From an uncultured Rhodospirillales bacterium (GTDB lineage: Bacteria; Pseudomonadota; Alphaproteobacteria; Azospirillales; Azospirillaceae), in contig CAIZDL010000065.1 of the NCBI GenBank assembly GCA_903931735.1, positions 1-64,000 of the forward strand: a stretch of DNA of 64,000 nt, in the 5' to 3' direction. This document shows positions 33,827-40,403 of this stretch, in pieces (within the stretch, counting starts at the first letter, position 1; every line of letters begins with the position of its first letter). The position numbers and the translations under genes are program-made. The notes under the pieces were generated by a model that ran no database searches, had not been told where the DNA came from, and saw only the letters and a list, made by a program, of their open reading frames with translations.

Positions 33827-34081
33827 CTAATCCTCGGGCAGCCGCCGTTTGGTGTTGCCATCCCGCGATTCGACGGCAATGGCGATCAAGGCCACCACCC
33901 CTCCCCAGAGCACGAAGATGTAAACGAACAACACCGGCCAGCCCATCAAAGTCACCGGTTGTCCAAATACCCGGAGCAGGGGCGGCGTGAAGGCAACGAC
34001 GGCAAATAAAAACAGCGCGATCAACCGGTCATTGCGGTAGGCGACCGGCGGCACCACATTGTCGGGGGTCGAGGAGGTCAT
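33827..34081 (-). CDS. Small two-TM protein, resembling small proteins found beside symporter-type sensor kinases
   Basis: RLIALFLFAVVAFTPPLLRVFGQPVTLMGWPVLFVYIFVLWGGVVALIAIAVE; 4-nt overlap with the upstream gene. Confidence 0.65.
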   Translation of the reverse strand: MTSSTPDNVVPPVAYRNDRLIALFLFAVVAFTPPLLRVFGQPVTLMGWPVLFVYIFVLWGGVVALIAIAVESRDGNTKRRLPED

Positions 34082-36312
34082 GGCGAGCGCTCTGTGGTTT
34101 GGGTGCCGATAAACGTATTGACGGCGCGCAGGAGGTCCCCAAGGGTGACGATATCCCGGTGGCGCAGCAGATCGATTTGAGCCAGCAGGACCGCCGCGGT
34201 GATCAGGCTGTCGCCAAGCGCGGTGTGGCGGTCGATGGCTGAAATGCCAAGCTGGCTGGCGAGGCCGTCGAGAGAGTGATCGGCCTCCCGTCCTTGAAGC
34301 ATCATCGAGATCAGCGAGGTATCGATCACCGGGTTTGGCAGTCCCCCGCCATCGGCCGCGCCCGCGCGCAGCAAGGGCAGATCAAGGGCCGCATGGTGGC
34401 TGACCAGCACAGCGCCGCCAGCAAAGCCTTTGAACGTGGGCAGCACGGCATCGATTCCCGGTTGGTCGCTCACCTGTTGATCGGAAATGCCGTGCCGGGC
34501 GGTGGCCTCTGGCGGAATCGGGCGGTCGGGATTGACCAGCGTTTGGAAGGGCTCGCCAATCAATATCCGCCGGTTTGCGATCCGAACGGCAGCGATGGCG
34601 ATGATTTTGTCGGGGTTGGCCGGGGCGGGGTTGCACGGGGCCGTGTTGGCGGGATCGGGGCCGGTGGTTTCGGTATCAAACACCACGTAGGTCAGGGTGC
34701 CGAGGGGTGTCGACAGGCCCGGTGTGTCGTCAAGCTCGGATTTCAGCACCGTAAAGTCGATGGCCTCAACCGGAATGGCGCGGCGCGGCGCAGTCTTGAC
34801 GGTGGGCGCGAGGTTGCCGAGCGCGGGGGGCAGCGGCAGGCGCAGGCGGGCGCGACCATCCGGCCGGCTTTCGCTCCAAAAGTCGCTGCGATGGTGGCGC
34901 AGGACATCGCCAACCGTAAGGCCGCCCAGGGTGGCAGGCAGGGGATCGGCCTTCCAGTGCTCGATGATGCTCCCCGGGATTGCGGCGCCGGTCCAGATCA
35001 GATCGAGGTAGATCCAGCGGGCGGCGGGCTCGGCGGAAAGGTCAAACTCGGTGGCGCCGTTGGTCTTGGTAATCCGTTCGATAAGGTGATCGATCAAGAC
35101 CGCAAGGCTAAAGCTATCCCCATGGAGCCGGCAGGGAATGCCGGTTGGAGTGAGGGTAACACCGCGATGGACAGAGACCCGGTGGCAGACCAATTCGATC
35201 AAGGTTAGTGAACGCAAATCGTTCATCGGCCAGCTACCAGTGATGGTGGCCCGGTATTGCTCGCCAATTTGTTCCAGATGGCGGGTAAGTGTCGCGCATT
35301 CGGTGCGCATGGCCTCTTCGAAGGCGCGCAGTTGGCCGATTTCGAGGTCTGGGCAGGTGTCGAGGGTTTCCATCACCGCGCGCAAGTTTCCGAGCGGGGT
35401 GCGCAAGTCTTCGGTGGTGGCGCGCAGCAGCGCGTCGCGGCGGCCAAGGGCGGCCAACTCGCGGGTCGCGTCGGTGAAGGTCAGCACGTAGCCGGTGACG
35501 GTGCAATTGTTGATCACCGGACCGGCGCCTTTGATAACGCCATCGTGGAAGACCAAGCTCATCCGGCCGTCGAGCATAATGCGCCCGTCGGGGGTGCCGC
35601 CGATGAACCGGCCGGCATCGCTGTCGGCATATCCGGCTTGGATGCCGGCCTGGCGAATCAGCCGCTCCAGGGTGTGGCGAACCGGGTCCACCAGCATCAC
35701 CGAAATGAGCGCTGTGCCGGGCCGAAGCTCGGGTGTGCCGCCAGCGTGCTTGGGTTGGAGCAGCTCATAGGCGGCCCGGTTGTGCAACGTTACGTGGTGA
35801 CGGATGGTGCAGACCAGCACCCCCTCGTGGAGGTCTTGGAGGATTGCGGAAAGCCGGGTGCTGGTCTCGGCACTTTCTGCCTCGGCCTTGGCGCGCGCGT
35901 GTTCGATATCGCGGCGCGCGGTATCCAACTGCTCGGCCAGGGCGTTGACCGCCTCGGGCAGGGGCGATATGTCCGGGTAGTCGTCGGCGTCGATCCTGAG
36001 GATCGCCGGGCCATGACCTGTCAGGTGGTGGGTTTCGCTGGCGAGGCGCTCGATCGGCCGCAACAGGCAGCGATTGACCGAAAACCACAGCCAAGCAACG
36101 GTGCCGATCACCAATCCCGCCAGCAGTGCCCCTTCATGTTGGGCCTGGGGGGCGTTTTCGCCGCTGACCAGCGTGGGGATTAGCGCCGCCGCGACCGAGG
36201 CGGTAACGCCGGTCACCAGGAACAGCAACGCAATGACGCGCCAATTTGTTTGCTCGGGCTCGCCTGTGAGCGGAGCTTCTTCAGGCAGGTCTAATTTGGG
36301 GGGGGCGTGCAT
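34078..36312 (-). CDS. Membrane HAMP/PAS degenerate histidine kinase fused to a C-terminal DnaQ-like 3'-5' exonuclease
   Basis: N-terminal TMs; degenerate H-box ATTEDLRTPLGNLRAVMETL; C-terminal DEDDh motifs VVFDTETTG, SHHAALDLPLL, HTALGDSLIT. Confidence 0.88.
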   Translation of the reverse strand: MHAPPKLDLPEEAPLTGEPEQTNWRVIALLFLVTGVTASVAAALIPTLVSGENAPQAQHEGALLAGLVIGTVAWLWFSVNRCLLRPIERLASETHHLTGHGPAILRIDADDYPDISPLPEAVNALAEQLDTARRDIEHARAKAEAESAETSTRLSAILQDLHEGVLVCTIRHHVTLHNRAAYELLQPKHAGGTPELRPGTALISVMLVDPVRHTLERLIRQAGIQAGYADSDAGRFIGGTPDGRIMLDGRMSLVFHDGVIKGAGPVINNCTVTGYVLTFTDATRELAALGRRDALLRATTEDLRTPLGNLRAVMETLDTCPDLEIGQLRAFEEAMRTECATLTRHLEQIGEQYRATITGSWPMNDLRSLTLIELVCHRVSVHRGVTLTPTGIPCRLHGDSFSLAVLIDHLIERITKTNGATEFDLSAEPAARWIYLDLIWTGAAIPGSIIEHWKADPLPATLGGLTVGDVLRHHRSDFWSESRPDGRARLRLPLPPALGNLAPTVKTAPRRAIPVEAIDFTVLKSELDDTPGLSTPLGTLTYVVFDTETTGPDPANTAPCNPAPANPDKIIAIAAVRIANRRILIGEPFQTLVNPDRPIPPEATARHGISDQQVSDQPGIDAVLPTFKGFAGGAVLVSHHAALDLPLLRAGAADGGGLPNPVIDTSLISMMLQGREADHSLDGLASQLGISAIDRHTALGDSLITAAVLLAQIDLLRHRDIVTLGDLLRAVNTFIGTQTTERSP

Positions 36313-37049: not shown

Positions 37050-37868
37050 ATGAAAATCAAGCTTCCCGAGCGGCAGGACTTGGCAGCCTGGATCATGGCG
37101 CTGGGTGTCGTCTTTGGTATGGCGATGTTTTTGACTGCGGTGTTCAACGGCAATCCGTGGAATGATCACACCTATGCCAAGGCGTCTCCGATTATCGCCG
37201 GGATGCCCGGGCCGCATCGCGATGGCCGCGAAAAGATGATTTGTTCGAGTTGCCATATTGTGGTTCCGGCCAAGCAGGTTGCGGGACCGGCGACGTGGCG
37301 TTTGCCCATTGTTCAGGGCACCAAGGCCCCGCATGTCGATGGCCGGGAGAAGGTGGCCTGTGCCACCTGCCACACTATTTTGGTGAAAGACACGGCGGCT
37401 GCCGCAACCGGCGCGCGTCTTCAGCCCACTCAAAAGGTGGGGGCTGCGTCGCCGAAGGTGGTAACCGTTGCGCTTCCCGTCGATCCCGTTGGGGCGCCGC
37501 CCGAACAGATTCTCTCTCCTGAGGCTCATGAGTGGTTTGTTGCTTATAGATTTCAGGGCAATGTTAAGCGCGTCTCGGGGACCGGCAGTCAAACTGTTTG
37601 GGGCGATGTGTATATTCTGGTCGATGATGGCATCAATGACCCGAGTTGGATCGATTTGGCGCCGCGTTTATTTTTACAATCTGGCGGCTGTTACGTTCGG
37701 CCCGGCATGTTTGTTAAAGGCACAGCCTATCGGGACCCAAATGGCGGGCCCGGCAGTCTTGGCTATGCAAAAAGTATTATGGTAAACGGCGAGTTGTGCG
37801 CTTTGCGTGACTCTCACCTTAACGGTTTGTGGGAAGACGCAGGGGGAGCCGATGTCGAAGAACCTTGA
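37050..37868 (+). CDS. mamX: MamX-like magnetosome protein: membrane anchor plus two tandem magnetochrome-type CXXCH domains
   Basis: N-terminal TM; PIIAGMPGPHRDGREKMICSSCH and PIVQGTKAPHVDGREKVACATCH; directly upstream of and overlapping a mamZ-like gene. Confidence 0.82.
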   Translation: MKIKLPERQDLAAWIMALGVVFGMAMFLTAVFNGNPWNDHTYAKASPIIAGMPGPHRDGREKMICSSCHIVVPAKQVAGPATWRLPIVQGTKAPHVDGREKVACATCHTILVKDTAAAATGARLQPTQKVGAASPKVVTVALPVDPVGAPPEQILSPEAHEWFVAYRFQGNVKRVSGTGSQTVWGDVYILVDDGINDPSWIDLAPRLFLQSGGCYVRPGMFVKGTAYRDPNGGPGSLGYAKSIMVNGELCALRDSHLNGLWEDAGGADVEEP

Positions 37869-39894
37869 GACAAAGGGGGAGGTTCCCCCCCGCGCTTTTG
37901 GCCGGTTGCAGTGGAATACGGTCTACTTTTTATCGTGCGCCAGTGCGTTGGTTGCTGCGATTACGATCGGTATTCAGCCATTGTTGCTGGATACGGTGTT
38001 TTGGATCGCTTTTGAAAAAGAGGGGGCGATCAACGCCGACATACAAGTATTCGCTGAAATCGTCTCGATACTTGGGGTCGGCTGGTTTGGGTTAATGTCG
38101 GATCGGATCGGGCGGCGTCCCATAATATTGGGTGGGTTTCTGGCAATATGCGCCGGGACGGTCTTATCGCTTTTCAGTCTAAAAATCGGGTTGACGGTCG
38201 GCACCGGGGCGCTCGCGCTGCTTTATGTCACCCGCGCGCTGATATCGGGCGGCGCTGACGCGGTTCAGCTTGAACTATCAACTTTGGCCGGCGATGTTTC
38301 GGAATTTCACAATAGGCCGAGGTTGCTGACCGACGTGATCTTCATGATGGTGTTCGGGGGAACGGTCCTTACCGCAATCATTATGCAAGTGGCCGAGCAA
38401 AAGGGCGGCATCGCCGTTATTGTGGCCTTCCCGCTGTTGGTCGGGGTCTGCGGCTATGTCATGTCCCGAAATAATTTATTTGATGTTCTGGACAAAAACT
38501 TGAGTGGTGGGAGTCCGTTGCGGCATGTTTTTCACTTTGTAAGTAAAGACCCGCGGATGCAGCTCGCCTTCGTCGCGACATTTTACACCCGCGCCGACGT
38601 GATTATTATTAGTTTGTTTTATACCCTCTGGTGCATTTCGGTCTCCGATATCGTTGGTGTGACACGGTTATATGCGGCCACTCACGCCGCCGTGATGATC
38701 GGGATGTTGGGCGCGAGCGTTTTGGCCTCGATCCCGATGTGGAAGTTGGTGATCGAGCGTCAAAGCCGGATTTCGGCAATCGGGGCCAGCTTATCGATCG
38801 CCGGCATCGGGTATCTTCTGTTCGGCTCATTTTCGAACCCGTTCAATTGGTTTTTGGTTTTGCCGATGATCTTGATTGGCATCGGTCATGCCGGCTGCAC
38901 CGTGACGTTGCAAGTGTTGACAGTCGATATGGCGCCAAAGCGGATGCTTGGGGCCGTGCTGGGCATGGCTTATTTAACCGGCGGTGCCGGAATCATTATG
39001 TTGACGCAAAGCAGCGGTTACTATTTTGACGCAGTTGGTCCGCGTGCTCCCTTTATGCTGATGGGAACAGCCAAATTATTGGTAACACTCTTCGCGAGCT
39101 GGTTGATTTTGAACGGGATCGATGAAACCAATGAACATTGCATGAAAGGGAACCGAAAGGTCGACTGGAAACCGTTGGTCTTTCTGACCGCCTCCTTGCC
39201 ATTTGTTTGGTTATTGGGGCGGTTTCTGGTTGGTGGCTATATGATCGGGCCGTCTCTCACCGAAACTCCGGTTGGTTTCATAAATCGTTATCTCGGTGAC
39301 TGGGCATTCACTTTCTTGATTATTTCGCTGGCTATGCGCCCGGTCCAAGAAATAACCCGGATCAGCGTGCTCGCCCGATACCGGAGGATGATTGGCCTTT
39401 ATGCGTTTTTCTATGCGGTGCTCCATGTTATTGCCTTCGTGGCGCTGGAGTGGGCATTTAACCTTGATGACATGATACTGGATATCTATAAGCGCCCCTT
39501 TATTATTCTGGGCTTGATTTCGTTTATGTTGTTGGTGCCTCTGGCTGTAACGTCGACCAATGCTCAAATCAAGCGGATTGGCGGCAAGCGTTGGAAGCAA
39601 TTGCATCGATCTGTGTATGCGATTAACATTATGATTGCGTTGCACTTTATTTTTGCTGCCAACCACGAGAATGGCGAACCCTACGTTTACGCCGGAATTG
39701 TTTTGATCCTGATTTTGTATAGGACCAAGTTTTCTGAGAAACTGCCCTGGGCAACCGCCATCGTGGCCCTTCTGAAGGCGGCGAAAGAGGGGCTGGGATC
39801 TCGGAAATGCGGCGAGTGCCCCGCCAATCTTGGCGATATGTCGGAAGCAAAGAGCTGTGCCGGACCCTGCACCAAGATCTCGATCCCTCGCTGA
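37852..39894 (+). CDS. mamZ: MamZ-like magnetosome protein: MFS transporter fused to a YedZ/MsrQ-like ferric-reductase TM domain
   Basis: MFS signature LMSDRIGRRPIILGGFLAICAGTVLS; C-terminal RRMIGLYAFFYAVLHVIAF...KRPFIILGLISFMLLVPLAVTSTNAQIKRIGGKRWKQLHRSVYAINIMIALHFIFAANHE. Confidence 0.87.
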   Translation: MSKNLETKGEVPPRAFGRLQWNTVYFLSCASALVAAITIGIQPLLLDTVFWIAFEKEGAINADIQVFAEIVSILGVGWFGLMSDRIGRRPIILGGFLAICAGTVLSLFSLKIGLTVGTGALALLYVTRALISGGADAVQLELSTLAGDVSEFHNRPRLLTDVIFMMVFGGTVLTAIIMQVAEQKGGIAVIVAFPLLVGVCGYVMSRNNLFDVLDKNLSGGSPLRHVFHFVSKDPRMQLAFVATFYTRADVIIISLFYTLWCISVSDIVGVTRLYAATHAAVMIGMLGASVLASIPMWKLVIERQSRISAIGASLSIAGIGYLLFGSFSNPFNWFLVLPMILIGIGHAGCTVTLQVLTVDMAPKRMLGAVLGMAYLTGGAGIIMLTQSSGYYFDAVGPRAPFMLMGTAKLLVTLFASWLILNGIDETNEHCMKGNRKVDWKPLVFLTASLPFVWLLGRFLVGGYMIGPSLTETPVGFINRYLGDWAFTFLIISLAMRPVQEITRISVLARYRRMIGLYAFFYAVLHVIAFVALEWAFNLDDMILDIYKRPFIILGLISFMLLVPLAVTSTNAQIKRIGGKRWKQLHRSVYAINIMIALHFIFAANHENGEPYVYAGIVLILILYRTKFSEKLPWATAIVALLKAAKEGLGSRKCGECPANLGDMSEAKSCAGPCTKISIPR

Positions 39895-39916: not shown

Positions 39917-39973
39917 GGTTCCGACTCCGACGGACCGTTCCGTCCGGTCGGAGTCGGAACCCTAGCTTTTTCT
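39917..39973 (+). terminator. Rho-independent terminator of the mamXZ-like operon
   Basis: Perfect 16-bp stem gggttccgactccgac/gtcggagtcggaaccc followed by ctttttc. Confidence 0.8.
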
Positions 39974-40403
39974 AAATGTTGTGTTGTTCCCGAGACACGA
40001 TCATTGGGAATGAAGCGCCTCGGTCACAACACGAGGAGAAGATGCCGAGGGGCATGTGGGAGTGATGCTCCGGTTGGCTCGATAAGAGATATTCGCTCGT
40101 GAATAACCGGCATCAAACGGGGGCACAACACAGTGCCCAGCCAAATCCGCACCGCTCATCGAGGCGCGCGACCATTTGATTGCGCAAATTGTAGCGGAAA
40201 ACGGGGTATCTTGCCCCAAATGCGACCTCTGCCGCGAAGGAGGGCCGCTGACCTAAAGACGAACCGTGGGGCACGCGCGGGCGCCTCGCCACCCAAACAA
40301 TGGCAGCCTAGCTGCCCCGCGCCGCCTCGCCACAAATGGTTCTACCAAACACGAACGGAACCCGACCCCCAAACCCTGTAAGGAGTTCGGGGCAGTATTT
40401 ACG

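Follow-up and report, generated by a model that had tools for sequence, protein, structure and literature searches.

The window, a 64,000-nt stretch of a 79.6 kb contig (C65) in an assembly of 3.48 Mb and 291 contigs, carries two overlapping genes on the forward strand. The first, mamX (37050–37868; ATG at 37050, TGA at 37866–37868), encodes a protein of 272 aa and the second, mamZ (37852–39894; ATG at 37852, TGA at 39892–39894), a protein of 680 aa. A Shine-Dalgarno-like sequence, AGGGGGAG, and the 17-nt overlap of the genes (ATG 37852 to TGA 37868) together occupy 37841–37868 on the same strand. The overlap was pointed out in the initial annotation and is a common trait: 16 of 20 mamXZ loci other than that of the window share a 17-nt overlap formed by an ATG. 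Twenty loci (∼4–12 kb each) were compared from the order of genome G424, which includes a Magnetospirillaceae-like family (f43); family names in this comparison were assigned from the gene order mamY-mamX-mamZ-ftsZ and from scores. Wherever a MamX locus also yielded a mamZ, the two genes are neighbors. A scan of the region for promoters performed no better than shuffles, a search against Rfam gave no credible match, and plasmid records yielded only partial matches of the MsrQ type.

The product of mamX has an N-terminal transmembrane helix (∼residues 14–32), two tandem CXXCH modules, as the initial annotation described, and a C-terminal MamS-like region. The Pfam magnetochrome (MCR) model PF18509 matches twice (78 bits, E = 3.8e-22). 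The first module (37188–37271, forward strand; 46.1 bits) contains CSSCH at residues 65–69 (37242–37256) and the second (37305–37388, forward strand; 43 bits) contains CATCH at residues 104–108 (37359–37373). The protein scores 74.5 bits against the MamS model and 346 bits against the NCBIfam MamX model NF040996, with residues 11–271 covering model positions 1–263 of 264. The latter score counts against the assignment in falling below the cut-off of 400 bits, although about a dozen other full-length MamX from the order of Magnetospirillum (the same order as G424; 305–390 bits) fall below it too. The MamX model has no match in 14 control genomes, which speaks against a chance hit. Among 21 MamX, 38 positions are invariant; both CXXCH motifs, His56, His95, and Cys214 and Cys250 of the C-terminal region are conserved in all. 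In a tree without an outgroup, MamX of the window is nested among those of other families and groups at 100/100 with that of a congener (G048) and that of a short contig (L123). By sequence, relatives of solved structure included none that are meaningful for MamX and none for MamZ, and structure prediction for MamX from an alignment of three sequences had a mean pLDDT of 33.7, too low to be of use.

MamZ scores 932 bits against its NCBIfam model, NF040998, far above the cut-off of 650. Its two halves match MFS_1 (PF07690; 79.7 bits) followed by Ferric_reduct (PF01794; 59.8 bits), confirming the proposed fusion of an MFS transporter to a YedZ/MsrQ-like heme domain, and the protein also scores 375.6 bits against the MamH model. 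The three histidines singled out in the initial annotation are invariant wherever sequences cover them: His525 (AVLHV) in 21 of 21 MamZ, and His585 (QLHRSVY) and His598 (ALHF) in each of the 20 long enough to include them. MsrQ (YedZ) is the heme subunit of methionine sulfoxide reductase. The C-terminal half of MamZ exceeds the cut-off for MsrQ (151.3 vs. 130 bits), as expected if the gene were an ordinary msrQ fused by chance to an MFS transporter gene beside one for a multiheme protein, with no tie to magnetosomes. The probability of such an origin is vanishingly small. In a tree of heme domains, 20 MamZ, including those of the window and its congener, form one clade with support of 100/100 apart from ten MsrQ, and the match to the MamZ model spans the whole length. 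Furthermore, mamX is adjoining and msrP is not, and in a class-wide sample of 338 genomes only that of the window exceeds the MamZ cut-off; the others match the MsrQ half or the MFS half only. A scan of genome contigs for MamZ, using narrow patterns, recovered two MAGs. An ordinary MsrQ–MFS fusion is contradicted by the tree and the whole-length scores. Thus, the profile search and the phylogeny against MsrQ, which the initial annotation had offered as ways to overturn its identification of MamX and MamZ, uphold it.

At its C-terminus, MamZ of the window has an extension with four cysteines (39805–39870, forward strand; Cys653, Cys656, Cys669, and Cys673) spaced as C-x2-C-x12-C-x3-C. The congener has a similar tail, C-x2-C-x12-C-x5-C. 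Among the MamZ compared, four-cysteine tails are present in these two genomes only, and other MamZ that reach the tail region have no cysteine in it. Local alignment matches the two tails across a 22-residue stretch, at a score reached by 12 of 5,000 shuffles; their global alignment is not significant. Going by how MFS and MsrQ proteins are normally arranged in the membrane, the tail would be cytoplasmic.

The gene pair is flanked on one side by genes for a response regulator and an exonuclease-domain protein and on the other by the ATP synthase operon (atpC). Four relatives retain the regulator/exonuclease block, but with a different gene as its other neighbor and with no ATP synthase operon at that location. 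The pair is thus at a break in synteny, rather than a clean insertion. The exonuclease-domain protein (34078–36312; 744 aa) joins a DnaQ-type exonuclease domain to membrane helices and a sensor-kinase-like region; it adjoins the CheY-like regulator and is conserved in congeners and in an Azospirillum-like genome (G012). Directly 3′ of mamZ is a dispersed repeat of ∼117 bp (39920–40037, forward strand) that belongs to no Rfam family. It has 12 matches (about ten copies) in the genome of the window, several near contig ends, with one copy 3′ of mamO on contig C43 (locus L009, 8625–8740). Congener G050, which has no MamX, MamH, or MamB above cut-off, has ∼22 copies, one of which adjoins the same response regulator (L140, 3935–4051). 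The repeat is probably unrelated to the function of mamXZ.

Nucleotide composition sets the pair apart. It is the 2.8 kb of lowest GC in the window (0.533–0.537, against a mean of 0.623 with an SD of 0.033), and mamXZ of congener G048 likewise has the lowest GC of its surroundings; this hints at a separate acquisition, short of proof. The same value (0.535) could be taken to mean that the contig comes from a different magnetotactic bacterium of the same sample and was assigned to the wrong bin. Misbinning has a possible precedent in a related 3.8 kb contig with mamH-like, mamX, and mamZ genes (L021/L123) that groups with the Azospirillaceae pair and is in MAG AlinenLipids_bin-2225, which is assigned to another family and holds a second MamX; the presence of this contig there is misbinning or gene transfer. 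Nonetheless, we regard misbinning of the window's contig as highly improbable. The 79.6 kb contig also carries the ATP synthase operon and the regulator/exonuclease block; for the latter, congeners have the copies most alike in protein sequence (92–97% identity for the regulator). In the congener G048, mamXZ is on a 57.9 kb contig and has a similar drop in GC.

The genome of the window encodes most of the other magnetosome proteins, on contigs separate from mamXZ. A search for mam genes, suggested in the initial annotation, recovered mamH, mamE (3′ part), mamK, a mamL-like frame, mamM, mamO, mamP, mamA, mamQ, mamR, mamB, mamS, mamT, and a mamV-like gene, as well as feoAB. MamP, MamA, MamQ, and MamB pass or approach the cut-offs of their models; MamE, MamO, MamA, MamR, MamS, and MamT score below theirs. 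Contig C43 has, in order, the 3′ part of mamE, a 581-aa frame, mamK, the mamL-like frame, mamM, and mamO, followed by ordinary genes. It starts inside mamE (L009, 1–1197), whose remaining part encodes two PDZ domains and three magnetochrome modules, where MamE usually has two; these repeats are probably why the contig starts there. The 581-aa frame (L009, 1306–3051) is acidic, rich in Pro, Ala, and Val, and has no match in NCBIfam. In Magnetospirillum, mamJ sits between mamE and mamK, and the frame could encode a MamJ analogue.

The remaining genes are on two contigs. Contig C153 has mamP-A-Q-R-B-S-T and a divergent mamV/mamB-like gene, with ordinary genes flanking both sides. The divergent gene (L010, 10754–11695) is adjacent to mamP and encodes a cation diffusion facilitator that scores 365 bits against both the MamB and the MamV models; given these near-equal scores, the genome has two MamB-like proteins in addition to MamM. 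Contig C99 (6.1 kb) has feoA, feoB, and, at the contig end, mamH. Between feoB and mamH is a gene for a 71-aa membrane protein (L059, 4380–4595) with a Cys-rich tail, GCGSCSKCG, that recalls those of FeoB-associated Cys-rich proteins. Neither mamI nor the 5′ part of mamE was found in this fragmented assembly, and both are probably hidden in the assembly gap separating C99 from C43. No mamY was found in the genomes of the window and of congener G048, each of which has a single ftsZ; in two Magnetospirillaceae genomes, mamY is present and ftsZ occurs twice.

Congeners vary in their magnetosome genes. G048 is MAG VK3_bin-0780 (uncultured Rhodospirillales, CAIOBP010000120.1), obtained from a Finnish lake. 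Its magnetosome genes are spread over short or separate contigs: mamH, adjacent to mamT; one mamB-like gene; and mamXZ. In three other congeners (G047, G049, and G050), the MamX model has no match, and neither MamH nor MamB exceeds its cut-off. VK3_bin-0780 has been placed in Azospirillaceae, monophyletic with carbonate-forming magnetotactic bacteria of Lake Pavin (PMC11773610). All of the latter have a full magnetosome gene cluster, and clusters are also present in several related lake MAGs (PMC11773610).

The distribution of these genes bears on whether mamXZ could be a redox and iron-transport module that was repurposed in a bacterium making no magnetosomes. The pair lies apart from the other clusters, its surroundings differ between the two congeners that have it, and an intact yet silent magnetosome cluster has been documented in Rhodovastum (PMC9938234). 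Against these points, most other mam genes are present with intact frames in the same genome, the clade that holds VK3_bin-0780 includes cells observed to be magnetotactic (PMC11773610), and both mamX and mamZ are missing from Rhodovastum, whose cluster is silent (PMC9938234). Repurposing is consequently quite unlikely. The initial annotation had left the host as either magnetotactic or the carrier of a remnant or repurposed module; the near-complete gene set argues for the former and speaks against a remnant. Because magnetosome clusters can be intact and silent, magnetotaxis of the host is something we infer rather than assert. We conclude that the two genes are very probably mamX and mamZ orthologues whose translation is coupled and that their host is a probable magnetotactic member of Azospirillaceae.

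Functions can be proposed by analogy with Magnetospirillum gryphiswaldense. In that species, loss of mamX results in poorly crystalline hematite particles or hematite-like flakes and few normal crystals, rescue requires the MCR modules, and a complex of MamX, MamZ, and MamH has been proposed to act in iron oxidoreduction and transport (reviewed in PMC3971196; PMC3847676). All parts of this scheme are present in the genome of the window. If location in the magnetosome membrane, a redox role, and formation of the complex extend to this bacterium, the MFS half of MamZ would transport iron or a ligand of iron, and electrons would cross the membrane through the MsrQ-like half via heme held by His525, His585, and His598. 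MamX, in the same membrane and with two c-type hemes, would exchange electrons either with MamZ or with lumenal iron. Redox activity of the two proteins may then keep the ratio of Fe(II) to Fe(III) right for magnetite rather than hematite, with MamH, encoded elsewhere in the genome, as the expected third partner.

A magnetotactic lineage in Azospirillaceae is already known (PMC11773610), and mamXZ is an expected component of it. The detachment of mamXZ, the loss of mamY and ftsZm, and the cysteine tail of MamZ are modest new details. The window adds one more genome with a near-complete magnetosome gene set to a family in which magnetosomes co-occur with intracellular carbonate, and it indicates that mamXZ can exist independently of mamY and ftsZm. 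With no MamX in three congeners, and neither MamH nor MamB above cut-off in them, gain or loss of magnetotaxis can naturally be compared within this genus. The cysteine tail offers a defined set of residues with which to study the entry of electrons or iron into MamZ. More speculatively, and with considerable reservation, mamXZ may be an independent unit in this genus, moved or inherited apart from other magnetosome genes, in which MamZ gained a predicted cytoplasmic four-cysteine tail that would bind iron, zinc, or an iron-sulfur cluster and thereby provide a point of iron hand-over or electron entry that is absent from Magnetospirillum.

In Magnetospirillum and Paramagnetospirillum, the mamXY operon is organized as mamY-mamX-mamZ-ftsZm. 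The pair in the window resembles it in the domain make-up of both proteins, gene order, the 17-nt overlap, and heme ligands. Unlike this operon, the pair has no mamY upstream and no ftsZm downstream, and is instead flanked by the response regulator gene and atpC. It also differs from that of Magnetospirillum in being located outside of a mamAB cluster and in the extra Cys-rich tail of MamZ. Relative to MsrQ of Escherichia coli, the heme domain of MamZ is 34% identical over 181 residues, and its three histidines are aligned opposite histidines (BLASTP), but MsrQ lacks an MFS half and falls outside of the MamZ clade. Within the family, the magnetotactic CCP-1 and its relatives in Azospirillaceae all have a full magnetosome gene cluster and magnetosomes (PMC11773610). 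The mamXZ pair of VK3_bin-0780 is likewise free-standing and likewise encodes four tail cysteines, and its proteins are 79% (MamX) and 80% (MamZ) identical to those of the window. Its flanks are unlike those of the window, with genes for a molybdate transporter (modABC-like) and a methyl-accepting hemerythrin protein.
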